Shown here: positions 23,710-52,408 of the stretch, piece after piece | Position numbering within the stretch: position 1 is the first letter of the stretch | Layout of the letters: each line of letters starts with the position of its first letter | Source of the DNA: Comamonas testosteroni TK102 | GTDB lineage: Bacteria; Pseudomonadota; Gammaproteobacteria; Burkholderiales; Burkholderiaceae_C | Direction of reading: 5' to 3' | Assembly (NCBI RefSeq): GCF_000739375.1 | Contig: NZ_CP006704.1 | Location: forward strand, 2,666,001-2,730,000 | DNA length: 64,000 nt | Notes under the pieces: model-generated | Told to the model about the DNA's origin: nothing | The model's database searches: none | The model's input: only the letters and a program-made list of their open reading frames with translations | Made by a program: the position numbers and the translations under genes

Positions 23710-25101
<1,392 letters not shown>

Positions 25102-32449: not shown

Positions 32450-32913
32450 TGGTCGCCGATTCGCTGCGCTCCGGCGTGCCATCGGGCATGTCGTTCTCGC
32501 TGCTGTTGCCGTGTCGTCGCGCCTGCCGTGCCGGTGCCAATCCTGCGAATTGGGCACCGCACGTCGCGCTGCCTTCGGCGCGGCCGTCCAACGTGCAGGC
32601 GTCTTGCCTCGAACGCGCCCGACCTGCGGCCTTCATCGCGTCGATTCGCGCGTTCGCCGGCGCGCTGGCTGCTCACGCAGCAGCGCCGCCGGGCCGACGG
32701 TGCCTGGAGCGACAGCGGAAGGCAAAGGCGGAAGGCAAGACAAAAGGACGCGGCACCGGGCCGCGTCGAAAGCCTGTCTGCACATGGGGGTGGCGCGGCA
32801 CGGAGCGGCTTCGCCGCCGTGCCGCGTGGGGCGCGAGGCCCGCGCCAATGCAGGCATGCCCGCGTGCTTCGCACGACCGGGCACGCCAGAGCTTGCAGGG
32901 AGAACGGCGATGA
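32449..32913 (+). CDS. Hypothetical basic protein between traF and relaxase
   Basis: A frame of 154 codons rich in arginine, alanine and proline, overlapping traF at its start and the relaxase at its end by the 4-bp pattern seen across this operon. That layout supports it, but the composition is that of a shadow frame in GC-rich DNA and I recognise no domain. It may be a real small ICE gene or an artefact. Confidence 0.35.
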   Translation: MVADSLRSGVPSGMSFSLLLPCRRACRAGANPANWAPHVALPSARPSNVQASCLERARPAAFIASIRAFAGALAAHAAAPPGRRCLERQRKAKAEGKTKGRGTGPRRKPVCTWGWRGTERLRRRAAWGARPAPMQACPRASHDRARQSLQGERR

Positions 32914-34892: not shown

Positions 34893-34962
34893 ACGGCTAC
34901 GGATGCGCTGGGCTAGTAGTGCGTTCCGTGGTGGTTCAGGTACAACTTTTTCAGGTAAGTAC

Positions 34963-35407
34963 CTGGCCGAGCGTAGCCGCCAGTACGACGTCCAACGCCT
35001 GGGTGGCGTAGCGATGTAACTGAAATTGCACCGACCCATCGAGTTGCAGGCCAGTGTCACCGGCGCCACCTAGCTTGACCAGCAACTAATCGGCGGTGGC
35101 CGCGGATTGGGCGACCTAGCTCTGGTGGTGACGCCAAGGCAGGCTATGCAGCCGCCCGCCGACTTCCTTAAAGAACAGGGGCAGGCCGCCAAGGACATTG
35201 CCACTGAAGCCGGCTTGGAGCAACCCCCAATAGCCGACGGGCAGCGTGTAGCGGGCATCTACCATCACAGCGCCAAGCTCGCCAGCCGGCGCTGCGCGAT
35301 GCTCAACGATGACAGGGGAGTTTAGCCTGGTGCCGTGGAAGCCGATGATCGAGCAGCGCTTGGGGCAGCAACTCGCCGCGACGGTGCGCCCTGGAAGGGT
35401 GTCATGG
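34963..35407 (+). pseudogene. Degenerate second copy of the relaxase C-terminus
   Basis: Just after the relaxase lies a diverged repeat of its C-terminal 150 codons. Recognisable pieces are LAERSRQYDVQRLGG, LDQQLIGGGRGLGDL, EQGQAAKDIATEAGLEQ and IADGQRVAGIYH, matching LAERGRQYDAQRLGG, LDQQLIGGGRGLGDL and so on. It has several in-frame stops and lacks about 27 codons between EQG and AAKDI. It ends near GTGTCATGG at 35407. It is probably the remnant of another related ICE's relaxase, and cargo 2 begins directly after it. Confidence 0.8.
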
Positions 35408-37220: not shown

Positions 37221-38182
37221 ATGATCATCTATAGCCCCCCGCTGCAGCCAAGTTTGTTCCCGTTATCGACCTGGCCGACACCTTTTCCAATAATGCTGAA
37301 GCCAAGCGTGCTGTTGCGTGGGAAATTCACAAGGCCTGTCGAGACATAGGTTTCTTCTATATCAAGAACCACGGCATCCCTGAAGGCATGCTTCAAGCAC
37401 AAATTGAATGTGCACGTCGTTTCTTCAGCCTTCCCCAGAGCGAGAAGGATGAAATTGCGTTGAGCCACTCGCCAACAATGCGCGGATATGAGCCCATGGC
37501 TTTGCAGACTCTGGACGAAGGATCGAAGCCAGACATCAAGGAAGGCTTCTATGCCAGCGTCGATAGCAGCCAGTCCTATGTAACCAATGGTGCGTATGAC
37601 AGCCTCAATCAATGGCCAAAAAGCTATCCGGAGATGCGGGTGCAAGTAGAGGCGTATATTCAGGCGATGACCGGCTTGGGCAAGCATCTGCTGGGCATGT
37701 TGGCTCTTTCGCTGGAGCTGCCTGAAAACTACTTCGCTGAAGGAGTTGAACGGCCAATGATCACTAACCGGTTGCTGCACTATCCGCCGCAGCCCCGCGT
37801 TGGCGATGGCAACCAGATCGGTGCAGGAGCCCATACCGACTGGGGCATGATCACCATGCTCCTGCAGGATGACGTCGGTGGCCTAGAGGTGCGCAATGCG
37901 GACGGCGAATGGATTCGTGCGCCCCATATCCCTAACACCTTCATCATCAACCTGGGCGACATGGTGCCGGTGCTCACCCGCGGGATCTATCGCTCCAACA
38001 TGCACCGCGTCCTCAACCTCAATCCCGAGCTGCACCGTTATTCGGTTCCAACGTTCTTCGATCCCAATTTTTTCTACCGCATCACACCTCCAGACGGGTT
38101 GCCTGCTGACGAATCCTTGCCCGCAGCCTCTCGTACCGTGGGCGAGCACATGGCCGCCATGATGGAAAAAACATACGCGTGA
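37221..38182 (+). pseudogene. 2-oxoglutarate/Fe(II) oxygenase, copy 1, frameshifted at the start
   Basis: An isopenicillin-N-synthase-like oxygenase, about 320 residues when intact. ATG 37221 reads MIIYSP as in copy 2 (MIIYTP) but then leaves the frame: the C-tract at 37235-37240 has six C's, while seven would restore the frame to AAAKFVPVIDLADTF. Without that base, translation can only start at ATG 37388 and the product loses about 55 N-terminal residues. The rest is intact and keeps HTD, the distal H in SNMHRV, and RYSVP for 2-oxoglutarate. It may be a true frameshift, a phase-variable tract or a sequencing error. A 287-bp part (37778-38064) is nearly identical to copy 2 (48580-49563). Confidence 0.75.
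37778..38064 (+). repeat. 287-bp inverted repeat, left copy
   Basis: Identical to the complement of 48719-49005 except for one base (CTG here, CGG there; leucine versus arginine). It codes for the active-site core of both oxygenases (HYPPQPRVGD to PTFFDP). Outside this tract the genes are clearly diverged, apart from a 65-bp block with one mismatch (37640-37704 versus 49079-49143). This is the mark of recent gene conversion or recombination. Confidence 0.9.
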
Positions 38183-38246
38183 TATTGGGCCCCCGGCCAG
38201 CTACGGACACTTTTCGCAATATCGCCTAAAACAGTGAGACTTCATC

Positions 38247-39218
38247 ATGGAAACATTGCCAATCATTGATATCAGCCCGCTCTATCAGAATGACCGGGCA
38301 GCCTGGAAAAGGGTTGCAGATCAGATCGACGAAGCGTGCTGCACTTGGGGATTTTTCTACATTAAGGGCCACCCCATCGCTGAATCGCGCATCGAGGAAT
38401 TGTTGGCCGCCGGCCAGAGTTTCTTCAAGCTGCCCTTGGAGGAGAAGCTCAAGATTGATATCACCAAGAGCGTCAGCCATACAGGGTACGGCGCTATTGC
38501 TGCCGAGCAGTTGGATCCGAGCCAGCCGGGCGATCACAAGGAAACCTTTGACATGAGTTTCCACCTGCCGGCTGATCATCCGGACGTTGTGGCCGGTAAG
38601 CCGTTGCGTGGCCCCAACCGCCATCCCGACCTACCGGGCTGGCAGGAATTATGGGAGCAGCACTATCAGGATATGCACGATCTGGGCCTCACGCTCTTGA
38701 AAGCCATTGCGATTGCGCTTGGCACGGACGAGGATTTTTTTGCGAAGCGGTTTGCCGAGCCCATCAGCGCCTTGCGCATGATTCACTATCCGCCACGAGA
38801 AGGCGCTGCCAACGCAAGCAAAGGTGCGGGCGAGCATACCGACTATGGGTGCGTCACATTGCTCTACCAGGATCCGGTCGGCGGTCTGCAAGTGCGCAAT
38901 CTGGAAGGTGAGTGGCTGGATGCGCCGTTCATTCCTGGGACATTCGTCGTCAACATCGGCGACATGATGGCCCGTTGGAGCAACGATCGCTACAAATCCA
39001 CTCCTCATCGGGTAGTCAGCCCGGAGGGCAAGGATCGCTATTCCATTCCGTTCTTCGCCGAGCCCAACCCGAACACTGTTATTGATTGCCTGCCTGGCTG
39101 TTTTGACGAGAGCAATCCGCTCAAGTACGAAACCACGACGTGCATCGACTACATGCTCTGGCGTTTTTCCGAAACCTATTCGCATCGCGGTACGGACGAG
39201 CAGACAACGGCTGCCTGA
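38247..39218 (+). CDS. 2-oxoglutarate/Fe(II)-dependent oxygenase (isopenicillin-N-synthase family)
   Basis: A 323-residue oxygenase with an N-terminal DIOX_N domain (LPIIDISPLYQ... WGFFYIKGHPI) and a 2OG-FeII_Oxy core. Iron ligands H197-T-D199 and H254 are intact, and R264-Y-S266 should bind 2-oxoglutarate. Unlike the other two oxygenases, it is about 30-35 percent identical at a glance, so it is a separate paralogue. Such enzymes hydroxylate or demethylate small organic compounds; the substrate is unknown. It lies 64 bp after copy 1 and 100 bp before frmA on the same strand, so its product may release formaldehyde. Start ATG 38247. Confidence 0.88.
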   Translation: METLPIIDISPLYQNDRAAWKRVADQIDEACCTWGFFYIKGHPIAESRIEELLAAGQSFFKLPLEEKLKIDITKSVSHTGYGAIAAEQLDPSQPGDHKETFDMSFHLPADHPDVVAGKPLRGPNRHPDLPGWQELWEQHYQDMHDLGLTLLKAIAIALGTDEDFFAKRFAEPISALRMIHYPPREGAANASKGAGEHTDYGCVTLLYQDPVGGLQVRNLEGEWLDAPFIPGTFVVNIGDMMARWSNDRYKSTPHRVVSPEGKDRYSIPFFAEPNPNTVIDCLPGCFDESNPLKYETTTCIDYMLWRFSETYSHRGTDEQTTAA

Positions 39219-39278
39219 ATCGCCATAGGCGTTGCGAGATAAGGATCTCGTCCGCACCTATTCGATGTAAATCCGCAA

Positions 39279-39298
39279 CGCACGGTAACGACCGTGCG
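39279..39298. promoter_or_regulatory. Perfect palindrome upstream of frmA
   Basis: CGCACGGT-AACG-ACCGTGCG, 8-bp arms with a 4-base loop, 22 bp before the frmA start. It may be an operator for an unknown formaldehyde or glutathione-responsive regulator or an RNA hairpin near the ribosome-binding site. No FrmR gene is visible. Confidence 0.6.
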
Positions 39299-39307
39299 CA
39301 TATCTAG

Positions 39308-40429
<1,122 letters not shown>

Positions 40430-40439
40430 GCCCACGGCG

Positions 40440-41270
40440 ATGGAACGGATCGAACAACACGCCAGCTTCGGCGGCCGGCAGGAAGTGTGGAAGCACGCTT
40501 CGGCAACGCTGGGTGGCGAAGCGAAGTTCGGCATCTATCTGCCCGAAGCCGCGCTGCGCGGTGAGGCGCGCCCGGTGCTCTACTGGCTCTCGGGCCTGAC
40601 TTGCACCGAGCAGAATTTCATCACCAAGGCCGGTGCGCAGGAGCATGCCGCACGGCATGGCTTGATCGTCGTTTCGCCCGACACCAGTCCGCGCGGCACC
40701 GATGTCGCGGACGATGCCGCCTACGACCTGGGCCAGGGTGCGGGCTTCTACGTCAACGCCACGCAGCAGCCCTGGGCCGCGCATTACCGCATGCAGGATT
40801 ACATCGCCGAGGAGTTGCCCGCCTTGGTCGAAAAGGAATTCCCCGCCAGCGATGCGCGTGGCATCTTCGGCCATTCGATGGGCGGCCACGGTGCACTGGT
40901 GACGGCGCTGCGCCATCCTGGGCGGTATCGCAGCGTTTCGGCGTTCTCGCCCATCGTGGCGCCCTCGCAAGTGCCTTGGGGCGAAAAAGCCCTGGGCGCC
41001 TACCTGGGGGCAGGCCGGGCCGCATGGAAGGAGTGGGACGCCGTGGAATTGATTGGGGCCGCGCAGGAGCGTCTGCCGCTGCTTGTGGATCAAGGCGAGG
41101 CCGACGAGTTCCTCGCGGGCCAGCTACGGCCGGAATTGCTGCAAGCGGCCTGCGAGGCCGTGGGCCATCCGCTCACGCTGAATCTGCGGCCGGGTTACGA
41201 CCACAGCTATTACTTCATCGCCAGCTTTCTGGCGAATCATTTCGCGCATCATGCGGCCCGGTTGGCATGA
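40440..41270 (+). CDS. frmB: S-formylglutathione hydrolase
   Basis: A 276-residue esterase-D-like alpha/beta hydrolase. The nucleophile elbow is GHSMGGHGAL, the start motif LYWLSGLTCTEQNFITKAGAQ, and the histidine is in GYDHSYYFI. It hydrolyses S-formylglutathione to formate and glutathione, completing formaldehyde detoxification begun by FrmA, which ends 10 bp upstream. Intact, normal length. Confidence 0.95.
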   Translation: MERIEQHASFGGRQEVWKHASATLGGEAKFGIYLPEAALRGEARPVLYWLSGLTCTEQNFITKAGAQEHAARHGLIVVSPDTSPRGTDVADDAAYDLGQGAGFYVNATQQPWAAHYRMQDYIAEELPALVEKEFPASDARGIFGHSMGGHGALVTALRHPGRYRSVSAFSPIVAPSQVPWGEKALGAYLGAGRAAWKEWDAVELIGAAQERLPLLVDQGEADEFLAGQLRPELLQAACEAVGHPLTLNLRPGYDHSYYFIASFLANHFAHHAARLA

Positions 41271-41364
41271 CCGTGGCTGCCTGTAAGGAGTGGGGGCGGC
41301 ACGATGCACCGTCCGGCTCATCGGCCATCCCCGATTCTCAATTGAAACCTGAAAGGTGACTCTC

Positions 41365-41763
41365 ATGGCTAATCCCGTTATCTCCGGCAACGACGTTTTC
41401 TCGCACGTATTCATCGGTGCTGCCGACGTCGCACAATCCACCGCTTTCTACGACGCCGCCCTGGGCGCGCTCGGCATCAAGAACCTCGGGCCGTTCGGCA
41501 GCGGCTGGGTTCTGTATGGTCGTGACAAGCCCGCGTTCATCATCGCTCGCCCCGGCAATGGCGAGGCGCCTTCGAGCAATGGCGCAACCATCGGCTTCGC
41601 AGCGGCCAGCCCGGCCGAGGTCGATGCGTTCCATGCCGCGGGCCTGGCCGCCGGCGGCGCCGACGAAGGCAAGCCCGGCCCGCGCGGCCACCTGCCCGGT
41701 GCTTATGCCGCCTATCTGCGCGATCCGGCGGGCAACAAGGTCACGGCCTACGCTTTCGTCTAA
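41365..41763 (+). CDS. VOC-family (glyoxalase-like) protein
   Basis: A 132-residue single-domain vicinal oxygen chelate protein (DVFSHVFIGAADVAQSTAFYDAALGALG, then the C-terminal AAYLRDPAGNKVTAYAFV). It is a regular companion of frmA-frmB in related bacteria, and might act on a glutathione adduct, but its reaction is unknown. Start ATG 41365 after GAAAGGTGAC; an upstream GTG at 41356 is in frame. Confidence 0.88.
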   Translation: MANPVISGNDVFSHVFIGAADVAQSTAFYDAALGALGIKNLGPFGSGWVLYGRDKPAFIIARPGNGEAPSSNGATIGFAAASPAEVDAFHAAGLAAGGADEGKPGPRGHLPGAYAAYLRDPAGNKVTAYAFV

Positions 41764-42146
41764 GTAGCAGGCAGCCGCCGTCGGCAACCGTCCGCAACGC
41801 AATCGCCATGCAGATCGCCCCCGACTGCATGGCCTCGCTGTTGCTGGCCATCGGCAGGCTTTGCAGCCTTTGTCTGCTCGATCATCGAGAGCGGCACGCA
41901 GCGGTCAACCGACCAGCGCACGCCGAGTCCTTCGCGACAAGGGGCTGGAGCCCTATGACGCTGTCTCAGTCCTGCTCTGATGGATATTCTTGCCACGCTC
42001 ACGCGGCCAAGGCGAAGGGAGCTTACCGGGAGGCAAAGCCTATCGTCCTGGCTCAACACGCGATAAGAGCGTGCCCGATCTCTCCACCAAGATGATGAGA
42101 TCGGGGACGAGGAAGAAACGCTGCGGAAATGAGGGATTGCCAGCTT
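41764..42146. other. Convergent intergenic region with a hairpin
   Basis: About 380 bp without a gene. CCCGATCTC/GAGATCGGG (42074-42082 with 42097-42105) forms a perfect 9-bp stem between the convergent VOC and reductase genes and may serve as terminator, although no T-run follows. Possibly the scar where the formaldehyde module was inserted. Confidence 0.45.
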
Positions 42147-43142
42147 CTAAAGGTCGAGTACCAGTCGCGGTGAGTGACTGCGTGAGCAGCACAGCGCGAT
42201 CTTGGGTTGGGCTACGGATTTCTCGGCGTCGCTTTGCACGCTGTCGCGATGGTCGGGTTCCCCGGCAGTCACCGGCGTAAGGCACGCGCCGCAAATGCCC
42301 ATTTCGCAAGAGAGCGGTACGTCAATGCCCGCATCCAGCAGCACCGAAGCAATGCTGCGTTCAACAGGAATGCAGAACACCTGCCCGGAGGAACCGATCT
42401 CAACCTCAAAGGGAACTTCGTGCATCAAGAGGCCGGCTGTAGCTTCTCCGCCTGCGACCATCGGCGCGAACGCCTCCTGGTGAATCTGCTCGGTACTCCA
42501 GCCCTGGACGCTGGTTCGCTGCCGTACTTCGGCCATGAATCCCTGCGGGCCACATACATAGATGTGTGTTTGCCGATCCGGTGTGTGCAGGCACCCAGGC
42601 AGGCCCGCCCGTAAGCTGTCACCCTCAGCGCTGCAATGCAGGTAGACAGTGCCATGGCGAAAACCGTGGCTCAGGTGACGACTGAAAGCAACTTCGTGGC
42701 GATGGCGAACATAGTAGTGAAGTTCGAAGGACTGGCCTTCGGCATCCAGCGCCAAGGCCATGCTCAACAGCGGGGTGATTCCGATGCCGCCGGCCAACAG
42801 CACGGCAGGGGCGTGAGGCCGGAGCGCGAACAGATTTCGCGGCGCGCTAATCGTCAATGATTGCCCGACCCGCAGTTGCTCGTGCACATAGGCCGATCCG
42901 CCACGTGAGGAGGCCTCACGGCGGATGCACAGCAGATAGTGGTCAAGCTGCAGCGGGCTGCTTGCGATTGAATACTGACGGACAAGGTTATTAGGAAAAT
43001 GCAGGTCAACGTGGGTACCGGCCTCGAACGGCGGCAGATTTGAACCCGTCTCGGTCGGCACCAAATGTACGGCCAGATTGCCATGGCCTTGCGCGCTCAA
43101 GGCTTCGACGACTACATGAATTGTTGGAGCATCATTGGCCAT
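42147..43142 (-). CDS. Rieske oxygenase reductase (phthalate dioxygenase reductase type)
   Basis: A 331-residue electron-transfer protein. Domains in order: flavin-binding barrel (VRQYSIASSP, arginine-x-tyrosine-serine motif), NAD-binding domain (VLLAGGIGITPLLSMALAL and VCGPQGFMAEV), and a C-terminal plant-type [2Fe-2S] domain (CEMGICGACLTPV ... LCC, cysteines CxxxxCxxC plus a distal C). This order is typical of VanB and phthalate dioxygenase reductase. It passes electrons from NADH to the Rieske oxygenase encoded 38 bp upstream. Start ATG 43142. Confidence 0.9.
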   Translation of the reverse strand: MANDAPTIHVVVEALSAQGHGNLAVHLVPTETGSNLPPFEAGTHVDLHFPNNLVRQYSIASSPLQLDHYLLCIRREASSRGGSAYVHEQLRVGQSLTISAPRNLFALRPHAPAVLLAGGIGITPLLSMALALDAEGQSFELHYYVRHRHEVAFSRHLSHGFRHGTVYLHCSAEGDSLRAGLPGCLHTPDRQTHIYVCGPQGFMAEVRQRTSVQGWSTEQIHQEAFAPMVAGGEATAGLLMHEVPFEVEIGSSGQVFCIPVERSIASVLLDAGIDVPLSCEMGICGACLTPVTAGEPDHRDSVQSDAEKSVAQPKIALCCSRSHSPRLVLDL

Positions 43143-43179
43143 GCAAGACCTCGAAAAGAGTGGGTGGAAGCTGCTTGCC

Positions 43180-44244
43180 TCAAACAAGAAAGAACTCGCC
43201 AAGGCCCATCCGCTTAAGCCCGCGCCGATATGCGATGGAGCTTCGATCCGCAGGTATGTGTGCCTCCAGGGTCAGATCCAGTGGGAGGCGTTCGGGCTTT
43301 TGAGCTTCGACCATTGCACGATCCTCTTCAAAGACGCGCAAGTTGAATGCCTTGATATCCTCGGCCGGAATATGCTTGTTGACATTGCGAATGATCGGCA
43401 CAAAAAGCTTCGTCTTGCGTGCCGAAACGGGTGACGCCGCATTCATGATGGTTTGAACTTTTCCGCCAGGGAAATGAATAGTGAGCGTGGCAGTGAATGG
43501 CAGATGAACCTCGAAATGCCGTAACCAAACAAAGCCTTCCGGGTCTTCGAAGCCTGAACCTTTGGCGTAGTTGGACATGCTGCTGAAATAGTCAGCTATG
43601 AAACCCGTCGGGGTTTCACTGGTCTGGTAGTCGGGCACTTGCTGGTTGTTTGGATCGGCAAAGGTTTCCGTATGAACCCAAGCAAAGTGCGCCACGTCGA
43701 TGAAGCCCTCTATCTGCCGGCCGGCGAAGCCAGCGATATCGAAAGATGGGCAAACCACCTGCACAAAGTCCGGGTCATCCCAGTGCGGTAGCGAAGGAAT
43801 GTCCGGGGCGCCCGATCCGTCTTCAGCCATCAAGCATGTCCAGATCAATCCGTAGCGCTCGATAGCCGGATAACTGTGCAGATTCAGCTTGGCAGGGGCA
43901 GCTTGGTGAGGACTGGCGGGAATGCGATTGCATCTTCCCTCAGTACCAAAGCGAAGGCCGTGATACGGACAAACCAGCCCTTCGCCATCGTGCATGCCCA
44001 TGCTCAGAGGAACACCCCGGTGCGGACAAACGTCTCGCGCCACGACAACGTTGCCGTGAACGCGATAGGCCACCAGTGCCTCATCCAGCAGAGTGGCTCG
44101 GTATGGGGCCTCTCCGATTTCTTCAGCAAGCGCGATGGGATACCAGTGACGTGCCAGCAGACGCCAATCCTCTGGTTCAAACGTGCAGCCGAGAGGCAAT
44201 GCAATGGCTTTCTTGCTGAGTTGGGGAGGGGCTGTGACATTCAT
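43180..44244 (-). CDS. Rieske non-heme iron oxygenase, demethylase-like
   Basis: A 354-residue alpha subunit. The Rieske [2Fe-2S] ligands are C73-x-H75 and C92-x2-H95 (CPHRG...CPYHG); the mononuclear iron site reads D183-x2-H186-x4-H191 (IDVAHFAWVH). It has no beta-subunit partner, which fits the three-helix, single-component family of O- and N-demethylases (VanA, NdmA-like and similar). The stretch after the histidines (ETFADPNN, then VFEEDRAMVEAQ near the end) resembles N-demethylase NdmA from memory. With FrmA-FrmB next door, a formaldehyde-releasing demethylation is likely, but substrate is unknown. Start ATG 44244, with an in-frame ATG at 44262 as alternative. Confidence 0.88.
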   Translation of the reverse strand: MNVTAPPQLSKKAIALPLGCTFEPEDWRLLARHWYPIALAEEIGEAPYRATLLDEALVAYRVHGNVVVARDVCPHRGVPLSMGMHDGEGLVCPYHGLRFGTEGRCNRIPASPHQAAPAKLNLHSYPAIERYGLIWTCLMAEDGSGAPDIPSLPHWDDPDFVQVVCPSFDIAGFAGRQIEGFIDVAHFAWVHTETFADPNNQQVPDYQTSETPTGFIADYFSSMSNYAKGSGFEDPEGFVWLRHFEVHLPFTATLTIHFPGGKVQTIMNAASPVSARKTKLFVPIIRNVNKHIPAEDIKAFNLRVFEEDRAMVEAQKPERLPLDLTLEAHIPADRSSIAYRRGLKRMGLGEFFLV

Positions 44245-44343
44245 CGTGCGTTGCTCTCTCATGGAAGGTCTTTGATGAGGGCAATTTTGGGTGTTGATGG
44301 TGTATCAGTCCATCGCAGATAATCACACCCTCCGTACTAAAAA

Positions 44344-45306
44344 ATGCAACACATGCTGGAGGCCCGTGTGCTCACGTTCTCACGCTTTACTCGCTACTTC
44401 ATGGAAGTGGCTCGTCTTGGTAGCTTGCGTCGCGCTGCCGAGGTGCTACACGTCTCCGCATCGGCCATCGATCGTCAGATCCTTCTGGCAGAGCAGAAGT
44501 ACGAAACGGCCTTGTTTGAGCGCTTGCCCAGTGGTATGCGATTGACAGCCGCCGGCGAACTACTGCTGGCCGATCTGCGACGCTGGCACCGGGAGTACGG
44601 GCGCACGCTGGAACGTTTTGACGAACTAAGCGGGCTACGACGGGGGCAGGTGCATCTGGCCTGCATAAATGCGTTGGCAACAGGCGTATTGCCAGCCACG
44701 TTGACGCGCATGGGGCAAGAGCATCCAGGCATCGCAGTGGACGTTCAGGTGCTGGGTAATGCCCAGATTCCACTGTTAGTGGGGGCTGGAGAAATTGACT
44801 TCGGCCTTGTGATGGATCCGCCACCGACGACTCAGTTACAGATGCAGGTGATGCGCAGCATCCCGATAGGCATTGCCATGCCCGCCGGGCACGCATTGGC
44901 TGGACATGAGCAGTTGCTGCTTGGACAGACGCTGGATTGGCGACACATCGTGCCAACGGAATCATTGCTTGTTGGCGATCGCGTAAAAGCCTTGTATGCG
45001 CGACATGTAGACGCGATACGCTATGCGATTCGTTGCAACAACGTAGAGATGATGCGCGCCCTGGTGCTCAGTGGAGCCGGTATTGCGGTGATGAGCTGGC
45101 TGGACGTGTTCCGCGATGTGCAAGAGGGGCGCTTGGCCTTTGTGCCGCTGTCGCAGCGCCAAGCCAAGCCGCTGAGTCTGTGCCTATGTGTTGCACCACA
45201 GCGCCAACTATCACGCGCCGCTCAATGGGCAATGGAAAAGATACGAGAGGATCTGAAGGCGTTGAGCCTGTCAAAAGAACAGCCCGACCTGCACGTTGGA
45301 GACTAG
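44344..45306 (+). CDS. LysR-family regulator, divergent from the Rieske oxygenase
   Basis: A 320-residue LysR regulator. Its N-terminal helix-turn-helix (FTRYFMEVARLGSLRRAAEVLHVSASAIDRQILLAEQKYETALFER) is the variant with an A-I-D-R recognition helix, seen in regulators of amine and purine catabolic genes, from memory. It lies 100 bp from the oxygenase start on the opposite strand, so it probably controls it. Start at ATG 44344. It overlaps the convergent LysR gene by 4 bp at the stop. Confidence 0.85.
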   Translation: MQHMLEARVLTFSRFTRYFMEVARLGSLRRAAEVLHVSASAIDRQILLAEQKYETALFERLPSGMRLTAAGELLLADLRRWHREYGRTLERFDELSGLRRGQVHLACINALATGVLPATLTRMGQEHPGIAVDVQVLGNAQIPLLVGAGEIDFGLVMDPPPTTQLQMQVMRSIPIGIAMPAGHALAGHEQLLLGQTLDWRHIVPTESLLVGDRVKALYARHVDAIRYAIRCNNVEMMRALVLSGAGIAVMSWLDVFRDVQEGRLAFVPLSQRQAKPLSLCLCVAPQRQLSRAAQWAMEKIREDLKALSLSKEQPDLHVGD

Positions 45307-46256
45307 CTTTTTCTGGTGCGGGGCAGTGTGGACGCAGTGTAGTTGTTTAGACGGTCGAGATCCGACATGCTTTCGGTTAGCAAATTCAAGAACGCACGTA
45401 ACTTCTTCGAGCCGTAGCGGTTTCGCTGGTATACGCAGTAGATTTTCTTTTTCTCTGGCCTCCAGTCGGGAAGTATGGCCACGAGTCCTCCGCTTTTCAC
45501 CTCTGGCTGCACAAAGAAGTCGGGTAGCAAGGCGATACCCAAGCCATTCAAACAAAAAGTCTTCATTAGCCAATAGTCGTTGGTTCGAACCGCTATGCGC
45601 GAAATATACTTCTGCGACGTTTCTCTGGAGTGAAGCATGACTCGCTCTGAAAATTCAGATTGCCTCAACACAATCGAATCATGCGCCGTGAGTTCCTTCG
45701 GCGTCACTGGTAGTCCATGACTCGCCACATATTGAGGGCTGGCATACAGTCCGAATGAAAGCTGCCCCACTGGCTTTGCTATGACATCGGGAACATTCGG
45801 TGCCGCGGCGCAGACGTAGCAATCCACTTCATCAAGCTTGGGGGAATCCGCTCTTTCTGCTACATCCAATTCGCAAAGTATGGTGGGATGCCCTTCCAGA
45901 AACAGCTTGACTACGTGGCACACGAATGTCGTCGTGAATTGATTGTCGGAAAGCACCTTCAGGCGACCCTGCCCTCCCTGTACCAATTCTTGAACTTCAT
46001 GGCGCGCAGCCGCCCATCGCCCGCTCAAGTCTGCAAGCAATGCCTCACAATGCGAGTAGAGCGCCAGCCCCGCTTCTGTCGGCACAATCTTTCGAGCAGA
46101 TCGGATGAGGAGTTGTACGCCCAGCTCGTCTTCCAGGCGCTGAAGTGACCGGCTCAGAGTAGCCTTCGCAACGCCAGTCTGAGCTTCTGCTTTGGTGAGG
46201 CTACCTGCTCTCACGATGGAGGCGAAGGCTTCGACAAGTTTGAGTTCGATATTCAT
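45303..46256 (-). CDS. LysR-family regulator with upstream palindromes
   Basis: A 317-residue LysR regulator with a standard helix-turn-helix (KLVEAFASIVRAGSLTKAEAQTGVAKATLSRSLQRLEDELGVQLLIRSARKIVPTEAG region). Its promoter holds the island operator GTTCCA-N4-TGGAAC at 46339 and a second palindrome at 46375. Presence in the promoter of a regulator and two other transcription units makes it the best candidate for the master regulator of cargo 2, but this is inferred. Start ATG 46256. Confidence 0.85.
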   Translation of the reverse strand: MNIELKLVEAFASIVRAGSLTKAEAQTGVAKATLSRSLQRLEDELGVQLLIRSARKIVPTEAGLALYSHCEALLADLSGRWAAARHEVQELVQGGQGRLKVLSDNQFTTTFVCHVVKLFLEGHPTILCELDVAERADSPKLDEVDCYVCAAAPNVPDVIAKPVGQLSFGLYASPQYVASHGLPVTPKELTAHDSIVLRQSEFSERVMLHSRETSQKYISRIAVRTNDYWLMKTFCLNGLGIALLPDFFVQPEVKSGGLVAILPDWRPEKKKIYCVYQRNRYGSKKLRAFLNLLTESMSDLDRLNNYTASTLPRTRKS

Positions 46257-46337
46257 CCGGTGCGACCTAGGCTGTACCGCTCATGCAGCTACAAGTGCTC
46301 GTGGGAACACATATTGAACCTAGTATGCGCCCACAAT

Positions 46338-46393
46338 CGTTCCAAAAGTGGAACGGTGCGTCGCGTAGAGAGATGGTTCCGGAATGTGGAACC
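46338..46393. promoter_or_regulatory. Island operator B: two palindromes upstream of the LysR gene
   Basis: CGTTCCA-AAAG-TGGAACG (46338-46355, 7-bp arms, T-N11-A core) and GGTTCC-N7-GGAACC (46375-46393, 6-bp arms) lie 80 and 120 bp upstream of the start of the LysR gene on the minus strand. The first is the same palindrome as operator A. Confidence 0.75.
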
Positions 46394-46727
46394 AGCCGCA
46401 AATGGATGGGCCGCGGTGATGGGCGAGGTACGCTTGAAGGTTAACGACCGCGTTACGACCACCCCCTAAGGCCTGAACGTCTATTCGCCTGTTGCAACGC
46501 GCGTCGCTCGAACCTAGTCCATGCAGGTGCGGCCCCGCATGCTCTACGCCGCCGCCGCTCTGGTGCGGATGGTAGTTGCAGCCTGAAGGGGTTCGGTCAT
46601 GGGAGATGATCGATCGTGGGAGGCTCCGGCGTGGTCAAATAATCGGAGCCAGGATTCTCCCTGACCGCGCTGCAACATGCTGTGATCACCGAAAGCATCC
46701 CTGCGATGAAAGGCTACTGATCTCGAC
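46394..46727. other. Intergenic region after the BMP-type gene
   Basis: About 330 bp without a recognised gene between the 3' end of the BMP-type gene (minus strand) and the LysR promoter. A short frame at 46544-46765 has no family features and overlaps the coding end of the binding protein, so it is not called. Confidence 0.4.
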
Positions 46728-47801
46728 TCACTTACCTGGTGACTTGCCTTCAACGCCCTTGACATAGATGTTCATGGCTTCCAAAAATGCATCTGCCGCA
46801 TCCTTGTCGCGAGCTACCATTTCCTTTCCTGCTTGGTCGAGAATCGGGCCTTTCCAGACTGAGAACGCGCCACTCTTGAGGCCGCTCTTCACTTCAATCA
46901 GCCGAGCCTTCGTTGACGCCGGTACATCCTGAGCAATCCCAACAAGGTCGATGGAGTCCTGCTTGACGCCCCAAAGGCTTGCACCCGTTTTCCATGAGCC
47001 ATCCAACACCTGCTGGATCGCGTGGGTGTAGTAGGGAGTCCAGTTGATGATTGCCGAACCCAGCACTGCCTTCGGAGCATAGGCGGCCATATCGGAATAC
47101 ACCCCAAACGCACGTTTGCCGCGTTGCTCCGCAGCTTGTGGCACTGCTGCAGATGCCGTGTTTTGCATGAGGACGTCCGCACCTGAGTTGATCAAGGAAT
47201 TCGCCGCGTCAGTTTCCTTGGGGGGATTGAACCACTCATTGATCCACACGACTTTAGTCGTGATCTTTGGGTTCACCGACTGAGCACCCAACGTGAAACT
47301 GTTGATATTTCTGATCACCTCAGGAACCGGTACTGCACCAACGAACCCGAGAATGTTCGACTTCGTCATACTCCCGGCAACAATACCAGCGAGGTAGTAG
47401 CCCTCGTAGATTCGACTGTTGACCACACGCATGTTCGGTGAAGTCTTGTAGCCCGAGACGTGCTCGAACTTGACGGCGCTGTGTTCGCCGGAAAGATTCA
47501 GCATTGGGCCCATATAGCCAAAGCTGGTTCCGACGAGCACGTTGGCGCCCTGGGAAATCAGATCGCGCATGACGCGCTCCGAGTCGGCACCATCAGCGAC
47601 TGTCTCAACGTACATGGTCTTGATCTTGTTGCCAAACTTGGCTTGAACTTCCCGCCGTGCCTTTTCGTGTGCAAAGTTCCAGCCACCATCACCGATGGGA
47701 GCACTGTAGACGAAAGCAACTTTGAGCGGATCGGCGGCAGATGCCGTCATAGTCGTGACCGAGAGGATAGCTGCCATCATGATGAACCGGATCAGCGACA
47801 T
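46728..47801 (-). CDS. BMP-family (PnrA-like) periplasmic binding protein
   Basis: A 357-residue periplasmic substrate-binding protein of the BMP/PnrA family, whose known members bind purine nucleosides or related bases. Signal peptide at the start (ending ASA), then PLKVAFVYSAPIGDGGWNFAHEKARRE and GTSFGYMGPMLNLS, NILGFVGAVPVPEVIRNINSF, QQVLDGSW. No ABC permease or ATPase gene lies nearby in this window, so its transporter partner is either elsewhere or absent. Start ATG 47801. It may be transcribed as a single gene, from a promoter in the 315-bp gap at 47802-48116. Confidence 0.88.
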   Translation of the reverse strand: MSLIRFIMMAAILSVTTMTASAADPLKVAFVYSAPIGDGGWNFAHEKARREVQAKFGNKIKTMYVETVADGADSERVMRDLISQGANVLVGTSFGYMGPMLNLSGEHSAVKFEHVSGYKTSPNMRVVNSRIYEGYYLAGIVAGSMTKSNILGFVGAVPVPEVIRNINSFTLGAQSVNPKITTKVVWINEWFNPPKETDAANSLINSGADVLMQNTASAAVPQAAEQRGKRAFGVYSDMAAYAPKAVLGSAIINWTPYYTHAIQQVLDGSWKTGASLWGVKQDSIDLVGIAQDVPASTKARLIEVKSGLKSGAFSVWKGPILDQAGKEMVARDKDAADAFLEAMNIYVKGVEGKSPGK

Positions 47802-48116
47802 GGTGATTCCTTGTGTGGGTTGAAGATGACGCCGCGCGTCGTGGTCGTCCTCGACTCAAGCTCGATTTTTGAAGGGTAACTAGAGAGCAATACGCTTCGA
47901 CGAAATTTGGTGCGGAGCCTGCCATTTTCTTAGCCTCAAACACCCAATCGAATATTCTTATAAATACTGGGAGAATCCCTTTGACCAGTATTTTTTGTGA
48001 AGGACTTTGAGGGGAAACTAGGAATTCCACTGCCGAAGCATCGAGTTGGAGCTGAAGATGTTGAGACTGAATTTCTCTCTCCACCCAGCACCCAACTCTC
48101 TGTTCTTTCAGTTGGT
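47802..48116. other. Intergenic region upstream of the BMP-type gene
   Basis: About 315 bp, AT-richer in the middle (TATTCTTATAAATACTGG), where the promoter of the binding-protein gene may lie. I see no copy of the island operator here. No gene. Confidence 0.45.
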
Positions 48117-48563
48117 TTATTCGAATGAAATGGCGGGGGGTTGAATGCCTTCTGGCAATGCCGATGACGTTATTCTTACTACGTTATTCTCAGGGTCACA
48201 AAAAACGATCTGCCAATGGCCATAGTATGTGGCGAACGGAGCCTTTACGACACGCCCACCCCATTCCGTGATTTTACGAAACGCACCGTCTACGAGTTCA
48301 GGCTTCTCCACCATAAAGGTGATCATTGTGTTAATCGGGAAGTCTGTCTTCTCAGGCTTAATCCTGTCCGCCAATGACAAGAGATCGTAAGCCATCCAGC
48401 CATTGAAGCCGAGCTGCACGCCTGCGCCCGTCAATACCCGATAGATCGGCGAGGAAGCCTCCTTGATTTCGTCCCAACCTAGGAGGTGTTTGTAGAAGTC
48501 CAATTGCCGATCAATGTCCCGGCAGAATATATTGAACATAGGTTGACATACGAGTTCTTTCAT
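48117..48563 (-). CDS. VOC-family protein downstream of oxygenase copy 2
   Basis: A 148-residue vicinal oxygen chelate protein (MKELVCQPMFNIFCRDIDRQLDFYKHLLGWDEI, later YGHWQIVFCDPENNVVRITS, the latter a typical metal-ligand end). It differs from the VOC protein beside frmA. Start ATG 48563 after TGGAGAATGCACA, 17 bp after the oxygenase stop, so the two form an operon. The longer open frame upstream is only the overlap with the oxygenase on another frame. Reaction unknown. Confidence 0.85.
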   Translation of the reverse strand: MKELVCQPMFNIFCRDIDRQLDFYKHLLGWDEIKEASSPIYRVLTGAGVQLGFNGWMAYDLLSLADRIKPEKTDFPINTMITFMVEKPELVDGAFRKITEWGGRVVKAPFATYYGHWQIVFCDPENNVVRITSSALPEGIQPPAISFE

Positions 48564-48579
48564 TGTGCATTCTCCATTT

Positions 48580-49563
48580 TTAAGCAGTTTTTGCTGCGGG
48601 GTCACCATAGGTTTTTGCATACATTTTGGCGATGTGTTCTCCAACGGTACGCTCTTCTTGTGAAAATTCCTGTGCGCCCTCGAAATGCGCCAATGGCTTG
48701 ATCCTGTAGTGATAGCTCGGATCGAAGAACGTTGGAACCGAATAACGGTGCCGCTCGGGATTGAGGTTGAGGACGCGGTGCATGTTGGAGCGATAGATCC
48801 CGCGGGTGAGCACCGGCACCATGTCGCCCAGGTTGATGATGAAGGTGTTAGGGATATGGGGCGCACGAATCCATTCGCCGTCCGCATTGCGCACCTCTAG
48901 GCCACCGACGTCATCCTGCAGGAGCATGGTGATCATGCCCCAGTCGGTATGGGCTCCTGCACCGATCTGGTTGCCATCGCCAACGCGGGGCTGCGGCGGA
49001 TAGTGGAGAAGGCGAGTCGTAATCATCGGATTGTCGAGACCATCCGAAAAATAGCCCTCTGGCAATTCAAGCGACAGGGCCAACATGCCCAGCAGATGCT
49101 TGCCCAAGCCGGTCATCGCCTGAATATACGCCTCCACTTGCACGCGTATCTCTGGATTGCTATTGGGCCATTGATTGAGGCTGTTGAATTCCCCATTTGT
49201 GGTGTAGGCCTGCAGTCCATCTATACCGGCCATGAACCCTTCTTTGAAGTCTGGCCTCGAACCGTCATCCAATGCTTGAATTGCCATTGGCTCGTAACCG
49301 CGCATTGACGGCGAGTGCGCCACATTCAACTTGATCTTATCTTCCTGAGGCAGCGAAAAGAATTGCCGGGCACATTCAAGTTGCGCCTGAATCATGCCTT
49401 CAGGGATGCCGTGATTCTTGATATAAAAGAAACCAGTTTCTCGACAGGCCTTGTGAATTTCCCACGCCACCGCCTTCTTGTCGGCGATATCTTCGGAAAA
49501 GCTACCCGTCAAGTCGATCGCAGGAATAAATTTTGCCGCTGAGGCGGGGGTGTAAATAATCAT
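48580..49563 (-). CDS. 2-oxoglutarate/Fe(II) oxygenase, copy 2 (intact)
   Basis: An isopenicillin-N-synthase-like oxygenase, 327 residues from MIIYTPASAAKF. DIOX_N domain first (WEIHKACRETGFFYIKNHGIPEGM), then the 2OG-FeII core with iron ligands H205-T-D207 and H262, and R273-Y-S275 for 2-oxoglutarate. It is about three quarters identical to copy 1 at 37221-38182 and shares a nearly identical 287-bp segment with it. I chose ATG 49563 because copy 1 starts at the equivalent place; ATG 49575, four codons earlier, is also possible. It lies in an operon with the VOC gene. Substrate unknown. Confidence 0.88.
   Translation of the reverse strand: MIIYTPASAAKFIPAIDLTGSFSEDIADKKAVAWEIHKACRETGFFYIKNHGIPEGMIQAQLECARQFFSLPQEDKIKLNVAHSPSMRGYEPMAIQALDDGSRPDFKEGFMAGIDGLQAYTTNGEFNSLNQWPNSNPEIRVQVEAYIQAMTGLGKHLLGMLALSLELPEGYFSDGLDNPMITTRLLHYPPQPRVGDGNQIGAGAHTDWGMITMLLQDDVGGLEVRNADGEWIRAPHIPNTFIINLGDMVPVLTRGIYRSNMHRVLNLNPERHRYSVPTFFDPSYHYRIKPLAHFEGAQEFSQEERTVGEHIAKMYAKTYGDPAAKTA
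48719..49005 (-). repeat. 287-bp inverted repeat, right copy
   Basis: The partner of 37778-38064, in opposite orientation and with one mismatch. Homologous recombination between them would invert the 10.7 kb in between (the formaldehyde module, Rieske oxygenase and both LysR genes) and exchange the halves of the two oxygenases. Confidence 0.9.
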
Positions 49564-49681
49564 TGATGCAAGCATCCATATTTAGTTGATCTTCAAATGC
49601 AAGGCACGAAGGCTTCGCTTGGAAGATTGCTAATCTATGGCGTTGCGACTCATCACGTAAGGCGTCTAAAGGAAACGATAC

Positions 49682-50010: not shown

Positions 50011-51354
50011 ATGAAGAGTATCCATATCGAGAAGAAAATGAACGCTCCAACACTGCTGCTGCTTGGCGCGCAGCATGTCATGGTGATGTACGCTGGCGCT
50101 ATCGCCATCCCGCTTGTTCTTGGCGCGGCCCTCGGACTTCCAAAAGATCAAATTGCGTTTCTTATTAGTGCCGACCTGTTCGCCTGCGGGATTGCCACTT
50201 TGATTCAATGCATAGGCTTCAAAGGCGTTGGCATCAGGCTTCCTGTAATGATGGGGGTAACTTTTACGGCCATTGGCCCCATGATTGCAATCGGCAGCGA
50301 TCCGCAAGCGGGGTTGCCTGGCGTTTTTGGAGCGACAATCGCGGCAGGCATTTTTGGCGTACTGGTTGCCCCATTGGTTGGGAAGATGCTGAGGTTCTTC
50401 CCTCCTGTCGTAACAGGAACAGAAATCTTGGCAGTTGGGCTTTCTCTAATGGGAGTTGCGGCTGCTTGGTCAGCAGGTGGATATGGCAACCCGGACTTCG
50501 GTAGCCCGTTATATCTTTCGATCGCAGGCTTGGTTCTCATATCTGTTTTGGCCTTGGTGAGGTTTACCACTGGCTTTCTCAACAACATTGCAATTCTGCT
50601 GGGGTTGATCGGCGGATTCATTGTCTCTAGCGCAGTAGGTCTTGTGTCGTTGAATGAGCTAAGCGATGCACCCTTGTTTGGCTTGATTCTTCCTTTTCAT
50701 TTTGGGCTGCCGAAATTTAGCTTCTGGGCCATTGCGGCGATGTGCATTGTCATGCTGGTGACGTTTATAGAGTCAACTGGAATGTTCCTTGCCTTGGGCG
50801 AGATCGTGGATAAGCCAGTCAGCGAAAAGGATCTCGTTCGAGGATTTCGCGCCGATGGGGCGGGCACGGTAATTGGCGGAATATTCAATACTTTCCCGTA
50901 TACCTCATATGCACAAAATGTAGGCCTAGTGAGTGTGACCGGGGTAAAGAGTCGTTGGGTATGTGTAGTGGCAGGAGTTATCCTGATGGTTCTTGGGCTT
51001 TCTCCCAAGATGGCTGTTCTAGTCGCATCGATTCCTCCTTTTGTATTGGGTGGAGTGGGGATCGTAATGTTTGGCATGGTTGCCGCAACTGGAATTAAAG
51101 TTCTGGCGCGAGTCAATCTGAAGAATGTTTATAACTTATATGTCATTGCCATTAGCATAGGCTTGGGCATGATTCCTGTCGTGATGCCGAAGTTCTTCTC
51201 CAAACTTCCTCATGAACTGGCCCCCATCTTAGAGAGTCCAATTCTGCTAACCGCAATCAGTGCTATTCTGCTGAACCTTTTTTTCAATGGATTGGGTGAT
51301 GATAATTCCGCTCGAATCGAATTGATGGAGGTTGCAAAAGATTCTGAGCCATGA
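50011..51354 (+). CDS. NCS2-family xanthine/uracil-type permease
   Basis: A 447-residue inner-membrane permease with about 12-14 membrane segments. The first segment has the NAT/NCS2 QH motif (GAQHVMVMYAG), and the signature QNVGLVSVTG is intact (Q-N-x-G-x4-T-G). NCS2 proteins import purines such as xanthine and uric acid or uracil; the longer first-segment motif suggests the purine branch, but specificity is not certain. It lies divergent from oxygenase copy 2 and has island operator C 170 bp upstream. Start ATG 50011 after GAGGAAT; ATG 50038 is an alternative. Confidence 0.92.
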   Translation: MKSIHIEKKMNAPTLLLLGAQHVMVMYAGAIAIPLVLGAALGLPKDQIAFLISADLFACGIATLIQCIGFKGVGIRLPVMMGVTFTAIGPMIAIGSDPQAGLPGVFGATIAAGIFGVLVAPLVGKMLRFFPPVVTGTEILAVGLSLMGVAAAWSAGGYGNPDFGSPLYLSIAGLVLISVLALVRFTTGFLNNIAILLGLIGGFIVSSAVGLVSLNELSDAPLFGLILPFHFGLPKFSFWAIAAMCIVMLVTFIESTGMFLALGEIVDKPVSEKDLVRGFRADGAGTVIGGIFNTFPYTSYAQNVGLVSVTGVKSRWVCVVAGVILMVLGLSPKMAVLVASIPPFVLGGVGIVMFGMVAATGIKVLARVNLKNVYNLYVIAISIGLGMIPVVMPKFFSKLPHELAPILESPILLTAISAILLNLFFNGLGDDNSARIELMEVAKDSEP

Positions 51355-51463
51355 TTGATGCGCTTGGATAATGGAATCTACCTCGTGATTGATTTCTTCC
51401 AAACAAAGCACAGGGACAACAGGCGCCTGCTGAGTTTTTCCTAGTTCTGAGGGGTATTCTTCG

Positions 51464-52408
51464 GTGGAATTGAGACACTTGCGTTGTTTCCAGGCAGTAG
51501 CGGAAGAACTTCACTTCGCCCGCGCGGCTGAGAAGTTGCACATTGAGCAATCGCCGCTGTCCCGCACAATTAAGGAACTAGAGGAAGACCTAGGCGAACA
51601 GTTGTTCGTCCGCACCAGTCGCAGCACGCGATTGACGCGGGCGGGTAAGCTATTTCTGGAGCATGTGCCGCGCGTGTTCACCGCCTTGCAGCAGGCCCGA
51701 GACAGCGTGAAGGCAGCAGCTAATGGTTTCCACGGCCAACTACGCATAGCGCTATCTGATGGCATCACGCCCTCGCGCTTGCCGGCCTTGCTCGCGCTTT
51801 GCCGACAGGAGGAACCGGAGGTTGACATTCGACTATTCCAAGTACCGCTGGCGCAGCAGATCAAGGGGCTGCAAGATGACCTGTACGACGTAGGCTTTGC
51901 GCAGTCGGATGAAGTGGGTGAAGGCATTGCTGTCGAAGCGGTGTGGAGTGATCCGCTGATGGTGGCCGTACCGGCGCGGCATCATCTGCTTAAGCACAAG
52001 CGCATCCCATTGGACGAGGTGCTGCAATTCCCGCTGGTGCTATCTGACCCACAGGTGTGCGAGGGACATGCGAAGCAGGTTGAACGTGTGCTGCGCCGTT
52101 CCGAACGCGAACCTTTGATTGCCGAGCGTGTTGCCTCGTTCGAGTTGATGATGGTGGTGGTATCGGCTGGCTTCGCCCTGGGACTGGCTGGAGGGCCGCA
52201 CATCGCAGCAAGCCGGGAGCCTGGCGTGGTGGCCCGGCCTTTGGCTGGACGCTCTTCCATGCTGACGACCTACCTGCTGCGGTGCGAAGGCGAGGTTTCC
52301 GAAGTGCTGTCGAGATTTATCGAGCGGGTACAAGCAATCGACTTACCGGAAGGCACAAGGGCCCCGCCACCACCTGAACCCGACCCACAGGAGGAAATCG
52401 AGTTATGA
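51464..52408 (+). CDS. traR: TraR, LysR-family regulator of ICE transfer genes
   Basis: A 314-residue LysR regulator (MELRHLRCFQAVAEELHFARAAEKLHIEQSPLSRTIKELEEDLGEQLF...). In Tn4371-like ICEs a LysR gene at this place, before traG, is called traR and is thought to control transfer. The start is GTG 51464 after GAGGGG. It overlaps the exclusion lipoprotein gene by 4 bp, and a strong terminator follows that gene. Marks the return to ICE backbone after cargo 2. Confidence 0.88.
   Translation: MELRHLRCFQAVAEELHFARAAEKLHIEQSPLSRTIKELEEDLGEQLFVRTSRSTRLTRAGKLFLEHVPRVFTALQQARDSVKAAANGFHGQLRIALSDGITPSRLPALLALCRQEEPEVDIRLFQVPLAQQIKGLQDDLYDVGFAQSDEVGEGIAVEAVWSDPLMVAVPARHHLLKHKRIPLDEVLQFPLVLSDPQVCEGHAKQVERVLRRSEREPLIAERVASFELMMVVVSAGFALGLAGGPHIAASREPGVVARPLAGRSSMLTTYLLRCEGEVSEVLSRFIERVQAIDLPEGTRAPPPPEPDPQEEIEL

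Follow-up and report, generated by a model that had tools for sequence, protein, structure and literature searches.

The 64,000-nucleotide stretch of DNA analysed here (the window; positions 2,666,001 to 2,730,000 of contig NZ_CP006704.1) derives from Comamonas testosteroni TK102, whose 6.06 Mb genome is a single contig, and contains two isopenicillin N synthase-like 2OG-Fe(II) oxygenase genes, A and B, which are the only close copies of their kind in that genome. Gene B (48580..49575, − strand) is the intact paralogue of 331 aa in the ORF list, with the Pfam domains DIOX_N and 2OG-FeII_Oxy. Gene A (37221..38182, + strand) was delimited by the ORF list, Pfam matches and a frame check; its body carries both domains, with DIOX_N incomplete. 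The ATG of gene A at 37221 does not share the reading frame of the body: it opens a frame of 42 codons that ends with a stop at 37347, and the first ATG, GTG or TTG in the body frame is the ATG at 37388. Besides the two domains, both genes encode the HxD...H and RxS motifs by which this family is recognized.

Between and beside the two oxygenases lies a set of metabolic genes. Gene C (38247..39218, +) encodes a third 2OG-Fe(II) oxygenase, which is 37–38% alike to A and B in amino acids and unconverted, and is followed by a formaldehyde module of S-(hydroxymethyl)glutathione dehydrogenase and S-formylglutathione hydrolase (39320..41270, +; above curated cut-offs). Further on, a reductase and a Rieske oxygenase (42147..44262, −) were found, the solved relatives of the oxygenase including SxtDIOX, SxtT, NdmA and NdmB, together with two LysR regulators (44344-45306, +, and 45303-46256, −; ORF list and profile match). 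Profile matches also assigned a BMP/PnrA-like substrate-binding protein (46728..47801, −) downstream of B and a xanthine-type NCS2 permease (50011..51354, +) divergent from B. This cargo is flanked by a match to an RlxS-like relaxase (32415-34892; 660 bits, below the cut-off of 850) and by another LysR gene (51464-52408), which precedes TraG and is read the same way; with the matches to TraG, TrbB, TrbE and TrbG, the order relaxase, cargo, LysR, TraG, trb is present.

Comparison of the two genes bore out what an earlier note on this DNA had described from the letters, namely two 287-bp tracts in inverted orientation that differ by one base, a 65-bp block with one mismatch, and otherwise diverged oxygenase genes. 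The tract in A (37778..38064, +) and the reverse complement of that in B (48719..49005, −) are equal at 286 of 287 bases, the sole mismatch being at 38031 (partner 48752), and the second block (37640..37704, +, versus 49079..49143, −) agrees at 64 of 65 bases and at 20 of 21 third codon positions. Outside the blocks the genes are 50–72% alike: the 73 bp between both blocks (37705..37777, +) match at 43 positions, with 4 of 25 third positions equal; 37244-37639, on the same ungapped diagonal, is 71.5% identical over 396 positions; and 38065-38179, 3′ of the tract and also on this diagonal, is identical at only 58 of 115. A repeat finder reported a 619-bp inverted repeat (37466-38084/48699-49317, 86% complementary) that contains both blocks and whose arms are 10.6 kb apart, as well as a second one of 213 bp (37235-37447/49336-49548, 75%). 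The tract encodes the active-site core, as the note had stated: the HTD, H and RxS motifs, which we take to provide the iron and 2-oxoglutarate contacts, all fall within it. A third block, probably older, was observed at 37316..37390 (+) and, on the same diagonal, 49393..49467 (−); 70 of its 75 bases are identical, as are 21 of 25 third positions.

The sharp block of identity in otherwise diverged genes includes the silent sites. Inside the 287-bp tract, 95 of 95 third codon positions are equal; in the stretch preceding it 4 of 25 are, and in the one following it 12 of 39, so selection at the protein level is no explanation. A reading without exchange, in which purifying selection acts on the active-site core, gains some sense from the motifs in the tract; it is refuted by these silent sites (16–53% third-position identity in the neighbouring stretches) and retains practically no probability. 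It also sits poorly with 18 paralogue pairs from eight other loci, which, though more diverged, nowhere exceed 68% over 99 bp and none of which appeared converted (the comparison covered matches longer than 500 bp). These controls are weak, as Acinetobacter modules resembling one another make up five of the eight loci and the protein likeness within the pairs is only 37–43%. When the codons of the A/B alignment were shuffled, none of 10,000 replicates reached 287 bp with one mismatch allowed (longest run, 99), and for the third block none of 5,000 shuffles, performed after removal of the 65-bp block, reached the observed agreement.

An assembly or polishing artefact, in which one tract was copied over the other, is likewise highly improbable. 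Repeats are a known weak point of assemblies, and the records P0034 and P0041 stop in or near the tract; against this, the genome is a single contig, reads from genes 28% or more apart would not be expected to cross-map, and the same core recurs in independent records of both gene types. The protein core of the tract is identical to that of B in the B-type records P0001-P0008 and in the A-type record P0039 (94/94 each), the letters of P0039 differing from those of gene A in the window. Because P0005 and P0006, which are named P. aeruginosa, share this core, it is no artefact of the assembly of this genome.

We therefore consider it very probable, from sequence comparison, that the identical core arose by non-crossover, i.e. 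non-reciprocal, gene conversion, whichever the direction, the competing directions being variants within this reading. Each gene keeps its own type at both ends, A-like in A and B-like in B, so the flanks have remained unexchanged. A further copy in this genome was ruled out as exchange partner, A and B being the only close ones. The earlier note had called the conversion recent; conversion is borne out by the silent sites and the shuffles, and recency holds only relative to the divergence of A and B, since the same protein core in other records places the event before the split of several lineages.

The same note had further proposed that recombination between the tracts could flip the intervening segment and shuffle the two oxygenases. 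Its geometry stands: the near-identical 287-bp tracts are inverted with their frames in register and, judging from coordinates and frames, a crossover in the tract would join the out-of-frame start of A to the C-terminal part of B, and the intact start of B to the C-terminal part of A. For a flip that has taken place, or that operates as a system, there is no support, as the ends of A and B are unrecombined and the obligatory partner product, a protein with an A-like N-terminal and a B-like C-terminal part (A-N/B-C), was found in 0 of the 133 homologues listed, which came from two protein searches (best 120 of 1538 and best 120 of 1653 hits). Inversion is geometrically possible, and unsupported here. 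An invertible module, with reciprocal recombination, both orientations coexisting, hybrid oxygenases and a broken start moving between the genes, thus seems very unlikely to us, even though the opposite hybrids (B-N/A-C) P0010 and P0011 do occur in the protein database and inversions made up 5 of 59 recombinants at inverted identical cassettes in Salmonella, and up to a quarter for tuf, in the available text of PMC8262849. P0010 (35 member sequences, 1 contig) changes over between 37598 and 37625, outside the tract. P0011 changes over between 37766 and 38066, and is A-like at four informative sites and then unrelated. P0009 and P0041 switch at exact A/B runs of 56 bp (also 33 bp for P0009), as short-word assemblers could produce. 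Among the listed homologues, the database hybrids run in one direction only, and they may be assembly chimeras; we rejected P0009, P0010, P0011 and P0041 as proof of inversion. Gene A lies beside C and gene B beside the BMP gene, which gives no sign of a flip, the relatives being too distant for this to be decisive, and the genes scanned between the tracts are metabolic, LysR or without match. It is equally far-fetched, in our estimation, that the locus serves as a flip-and-repair device, in which recombination at the inverted tracts or short matches would place an intact-start B-N/A-C gene, as in P0010, before the operon of A, C and the formaldehyde genes, the broken gene being retained as a reservoir of core and C-terminal variants from which hybrids of new substrate range could be made.

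Within gene conversion, the direction was assessed by trees of 28 homologues, built without P0009 and P0010, which are hybrids, and P0039, which is partial. In the tree of the sequence outside the tract, A falls together with P0022, P0026, P0028, P0029, P0031 and P0032 (support 86) and B with P0012-P0019 (support 97), whereas in the tree of the tract both A and B join P0031/P0032 (98), and the whole A group at 54. In the best tree B thus leaves its own clade inside the tract (98), and seven residues in the tract are exclusive to the group of A versus one to that of B. These results lean towards conversion from A into B, with B as the likelier, though unproven, recipient. Conversion from B into A has a distinctly smaller but appreciable chance: despite the tree support for A-clade members and the exclusive residues, the tree test does not reject an origin of the tract in the B clade (delta lnL 16.2, p-AU 0.119; 13.3 and 0.217 after two taxa were added), and the mean tract identity is 0.846 to the group of B versus 0.819 to that of A. 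Four tract sites separate the groups by their majority residues (75% threshold), and there both genes agree with B's group twice and with A's once; at the two such sites in the 65-bp block, B's group has one match and A's none.

Base composition complicates the choice of donor. Third-position G+C is 71/94 (0.76) in the tract of both genes and 116/198 (0.59, p 0.006) and 111/198 (0.56, p 0.001) in the rest of A and B, respectively, so the tract looks unlike either gene, and as a pointer to the donor this measure fits neither A nor B. In nine relatives, which we picked from 32 loci, the difference between this core and the remainder of the gene is −0.05 to +0.12. The excess hints at a third donor or at GC-biased conversion, a process that can produce G+C-enriched tracts. 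A third relative, richer in G+C, as the source of the core in both genes, whether by two events or by one plus conversion between A and B, would also agree with the tract being nearest P0031/P0032 while the best tree outside it has A nearest P0022/P0026/P0029. We regard such a donor as rather improbable, somewhat more so than conversion from B into A: GC-biased conversion would yield the same composition, A with P0031/P0032 outside the tract is not rejected (p-AU 0.232), nor are A and B with P0022/P0026/P0029 inside it (p-AU 0.378), and no such donor gene was found.

The course of events would then be as follows. A and B would be old paralogues, inverted and 10.6 kb apart on an integrative element, in which ordinary homologous recombination, presumably RecA-type repair, copied part of one gene over the other without crossover, A into B being the moderately favoured direction; the 287-bp core of the active-site centre would thereby have become shared and the N- and C-terminal parts have stayed distinct. 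Smaller or older conversions would have left the 65-bp block and the block at 37316-37390. The single mismatch, a CTG (Leu) codon in A and CGG (Arg) in B at 38031 (+), probably reflects a later mutation in A. Arg or Lys occupies this position in 108 of the 130 listed homologues with a residue there, and Leu in one listed homologue, the hybrid P0009. The same process would only rarely flip the segment, as a by-product and not as a switch. The locus thus appears as a catabolic enzyme pair whose catalytic centre was homogenised and whose ends were kept distinct, and it cautions that assemblies of this element may yield false hybrid oxygenases; if the flip were true, it would mean natural domain shuffling by inversion in a catabolic ICE.

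Searches for a second genome with both genes found none in 61 relatives, 399 family and 398 phylum genomes (counts include the own genome), nor did DNA and protein searches of plasmids yield a second such record, and viral contigs gave no match. A set with one representative genome per species, from which the records nearest the window were possibly left out, gave 32 loci (best 76%) and no genome with both genes, and the best long DNA match outside the own genome was 71%; as no readable DNA of another genome carries both genes, age and spread of the conversion rest on protein records. Among the entries listed by a literature search without full texts, nothing was found on conversion or inversion in such cargo or on such 2OG oxygenases in methylxanthine breakdown.

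By its predicted gene content, the cargo looks like an N-demethylation module of the methylxanthine type, carried by an ICE similar to Tn4371. With the Tn4371-family ICEs, as far as the available text of PMC11448139 describes them, it shares the arrangement of cargo, LysR gene, TraG and trb genes in one direction; the cargo differs here, and the putative membership of this family is a likeness of gene order. The ndmABCDE, frmA and frmB genes of P. putida CBB5 (available portion of PMC4408171) have in common the NdmA/NdmB-related Rieske oxygenase, the reductase and the formaldehyde dehydrogenase and hydrolase, to which the cargo here, by its predicted genes, adds three 2OG-Fe(II) oxygenases, the BMP binding protein, a Tsx-like channel and the NCS2 permease. 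Plasmid p1 of Paraburkholderia caffeinilytica CF1 also encodes a 2OG oxygenase (69% to B), BMP, NCS2 permease, LysR, Rieske-type and formaldehyde genes, but in another order and with a single match to B in the whole record, so no conversion partner exists there.

The mechanism itself is ordinary in bacteria, and the A/B pair is an informative example of it. Its closest counterpart is Salmonella tufA/tufB (PMC5485169, PMC8262849), which, in the accessible parts of these reports, are likewise inverted paralogues on one replicon with converted blocks of hundreds of bp and occasional inversion as a by-product. The tuf genes, which lie 762 kb apart, convert with a walk that averages about 500 nt (PMC5485169), and for one set of the inverted identical cassettes the mean rate of repair was 2.6e-6 per cell per generation (PMC8262849). 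Unlike the tuf genes, which are nearly identical throughout, A and B are 50–72% alike outside the blocks, lie 10.6 kb apart on a mobile element, and keep their ends different.

Genes A (37221–38182, plus strand) and B (48580–49575, minus strand), both encoding isopenicillin N synthase-like 2OG-Fe(II) oxygenases, were the only close copies of this kind in the whole genome (6.06 Mb, a single contig), of which the window covers positions 2,666,001–2,730,000. The two shared tracts described in an earlier note, 37778–38064 with 48719–49005 and 37640–37704 with 49079–49143, proved exact, being identical at 286 of 287 and 64 of 65 positions in inverted orientation, and both sit within a longer, weaker inverted repeat. 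When third codon positions were compared, A and B were equal at 95/95 in the longer tract versus 70/132 upstream (37244–37639), 4/25 in the 73 bp between the two blocks and 12/39 downstream of the tract, and 10,000 trials of codon shuffling gave a longest run of 99 versus the observed 287 (one mismatch allowed). Thus, the tract identity exceeds what chance or selection would produce. A third block, 37316–37390, was identical at 70/75 bases overall and 21/25 at third positions, and so exchange between A and B probably happened more than once.

Trees of 28 homologues based on the sequence outside the tract placed A with an A-like group of protein records (P0022, P0026, P0028, P0029, P0031 and P0032; support 86) and B with a B-like group (P0012–P0019; support 97). 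The tree on the tract alone joined both genes to P0031 and P0032 of the A-like group (98), the whole A-like group receiving only 54. Residues confined to one group favoured the A-like group by 7 to 1 in the tract of both genes; the A-like to B-like counts were 17 to 6 for gene A and 9 to 17 for gene B in the N part, and 18 to 4 and 1 to 16, respectively, in the C part. Other results weigh against an A-side origin: a tree constrained to put the tract in the B-like group could not be rejected (p-AU 0.119; 0.217 once two taxa were added), the mean tract identity was 0.846 to the B-like versus 0.819 to the A-like group, and at four tract sites with differing group majority residues both genes were B-like at two and A-like at one. 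On balance, these sequence comparisons lean modestly towards a conversion that ran from A into B.

The same 94-residue core, identical to that of B, was present in all eight complete unrecombined B-type records (P0001–P0008, of which P0001 may equal B of the TK102 genome itself) and in the A-type record P0039; according to their source, P0005 and P0006 come from Pseudomonas aeruginosa and the partial record P0034 from Sphingomonas. This distribution, P. aeruginosa included, indicates that the conversion is older than the spread of the A- and B-type genes, and the same core in other records rules out an artefact of the TK102 assembly as its origin. The sole tract mismatch, at 38031, alters a residue (Leu in A, Arg in B); among the matches listed, this column holds Arg or Lys in 108 of the 130 homologues with a residue there and Leu in one, the hybrid P0009. 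Since Arg also occurs in the A-type P0039, the mismatch is most simply explained by a mutation that A acquired later.

The ATG of A at 37221 does not share the frame of the gene body, its reading stopping at 37347 after 42 codons, and the first start codon in the body frame lies at 37388. Because P0039 likewise starts late (228 aa), a broken start may be common to both. Among the best 120 of 1653 matches, gene A itself was represented by no full-length record, only by the hybrid P0010. P0035, a B-type record from a contig of 1.57 Mb, starts mid-gene (205 aa), which suggests a broken or misassembled B elsewhere.

Third-position G+C was 71/94 (0.76) in the tract of each gene, versus 116/198 (0.59) in the remainder of A and 111/198 (0.56) in that of B (Fisher p 0.006 and 0.001, respectively); in nine relatives hand-picked from 32 loci, the same core differed from the remainder by −0.05 to +0.12. 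This excess in the shared sequence (within 37640–38064 and 48719–49143) sets it apart from most of the nine relatives. Either a third, more G+C-rich donor of the tract or GC-biased conversion would explain the elevated G+C, and the trees do not separate the two, A's place within the A-like group being fixed neither in nor out of the tract.

The earlier note had further proposed that recombination between the tracts could flip the intervening segment. The geometry would permit this, with the reading frames in register, but its occurrence was not borne out: on either side of the tract each gene still resembles its own group, and their present arrangement is the non-crossover state. Inversion yields both hybrid products, so it counts against a flip that a hybrid joining the N part of A to the C part of B was absent from the 133 homologues that came from the best 120 of 1538 matches in one search and the best 120 of 1653 in another. 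Of these homologues, 15 are close to A or B, exceeding 95% in the tract or 93% in the N part. Among the 15, the records mixing the two genes were P0010, which joins the N part of B to the C part of A; P0011, of the same type but continuing into unrelated sequence; P0009, a B carrying an A patch; and P0041, a fragment switching from B to A. P0009 and P0041 switch at a 56-bp exact A/B run (37649–37704), and P0009 also at a 33-bp run (38032–38064); we infer that both could be products of short-word assemblers. The switch in P0010 falls outside the tract, somewhere from 37598 to 37625 (site 37619 is non-discriminating, A's residue occurring also in other B records), and this record is the best lead for a real exchange. 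The observation on A and B is sound and its mechanism ordinary, namely gene conversion between inverted paralogues, and a flip of the segment is possible, unproven and probably rare. For inverted identical cassettes in Salmonella, PMC8262849 gives a mean recombination rate, in one set, of 2.6e-6 per cell per generation, inversions making up 5 of 59 recombinants; by analogy with these rates, a flip would be expected here as a rare by-product, and a switch is not implied.

Between and around A and B lie genes for a third 2OG oxygenase, formaldehyde dehydrogenase, S-formylglutathione hydrolase, a reductase, a Rieske oxygenase (SxtDIOX, SxtT, NdmA and NdmB being among its relatives of known structure), a BMP binding protein, a Tsx-like channel, LysR regulators and a xanthine-type permease. 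Plasmid p1 of Paraburkholderia caffeinilytica CF1 has most of these gene kinds, and the natural reading of the cargo is a putative methylxanthine-type N-demethylation module. A parallel module with Rieske and BMP genes was seen at Acinetobacter loci L035–L040, five of the six also having three 2OG oxygenases, Tsx-like and NCS2 genes (the L039 locus is cut short), and the B protein had matches in 39 Acinetobacter plasmid records. Elsewhere in the window, outside the segment between A and B, an IS110-family (RNA-guided) transposase gene occupies 24100–25101.

Direct repeats of 155, 147 and 87 bp (78–82%), about 550–625 bp apart, were observed at the 3′ end of the relaxase gene (34338–35407), as if this gene end had been duplicated. 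The TraG gene at 52899–54902 is one of six in the genome; the other five are 89–92% alike in protein, and each adjoins a LysR gene whose DNA is 68–73% alike to that of the LysR gene preceding this TraG, so the chromosome probably carries six related elements. The cargo is flanked by an RlxS-like relaxase and by the LysR gene that precedes TraG, the arrangement that PMC11448139 describes for Tn4371-family ICEs. Within 50011–52408, the permease and this LysR gene both point towards the transfer genes, and expression of the purine module may be coupled to transfer, by analogy with what PMC11448139 proposes for traR.
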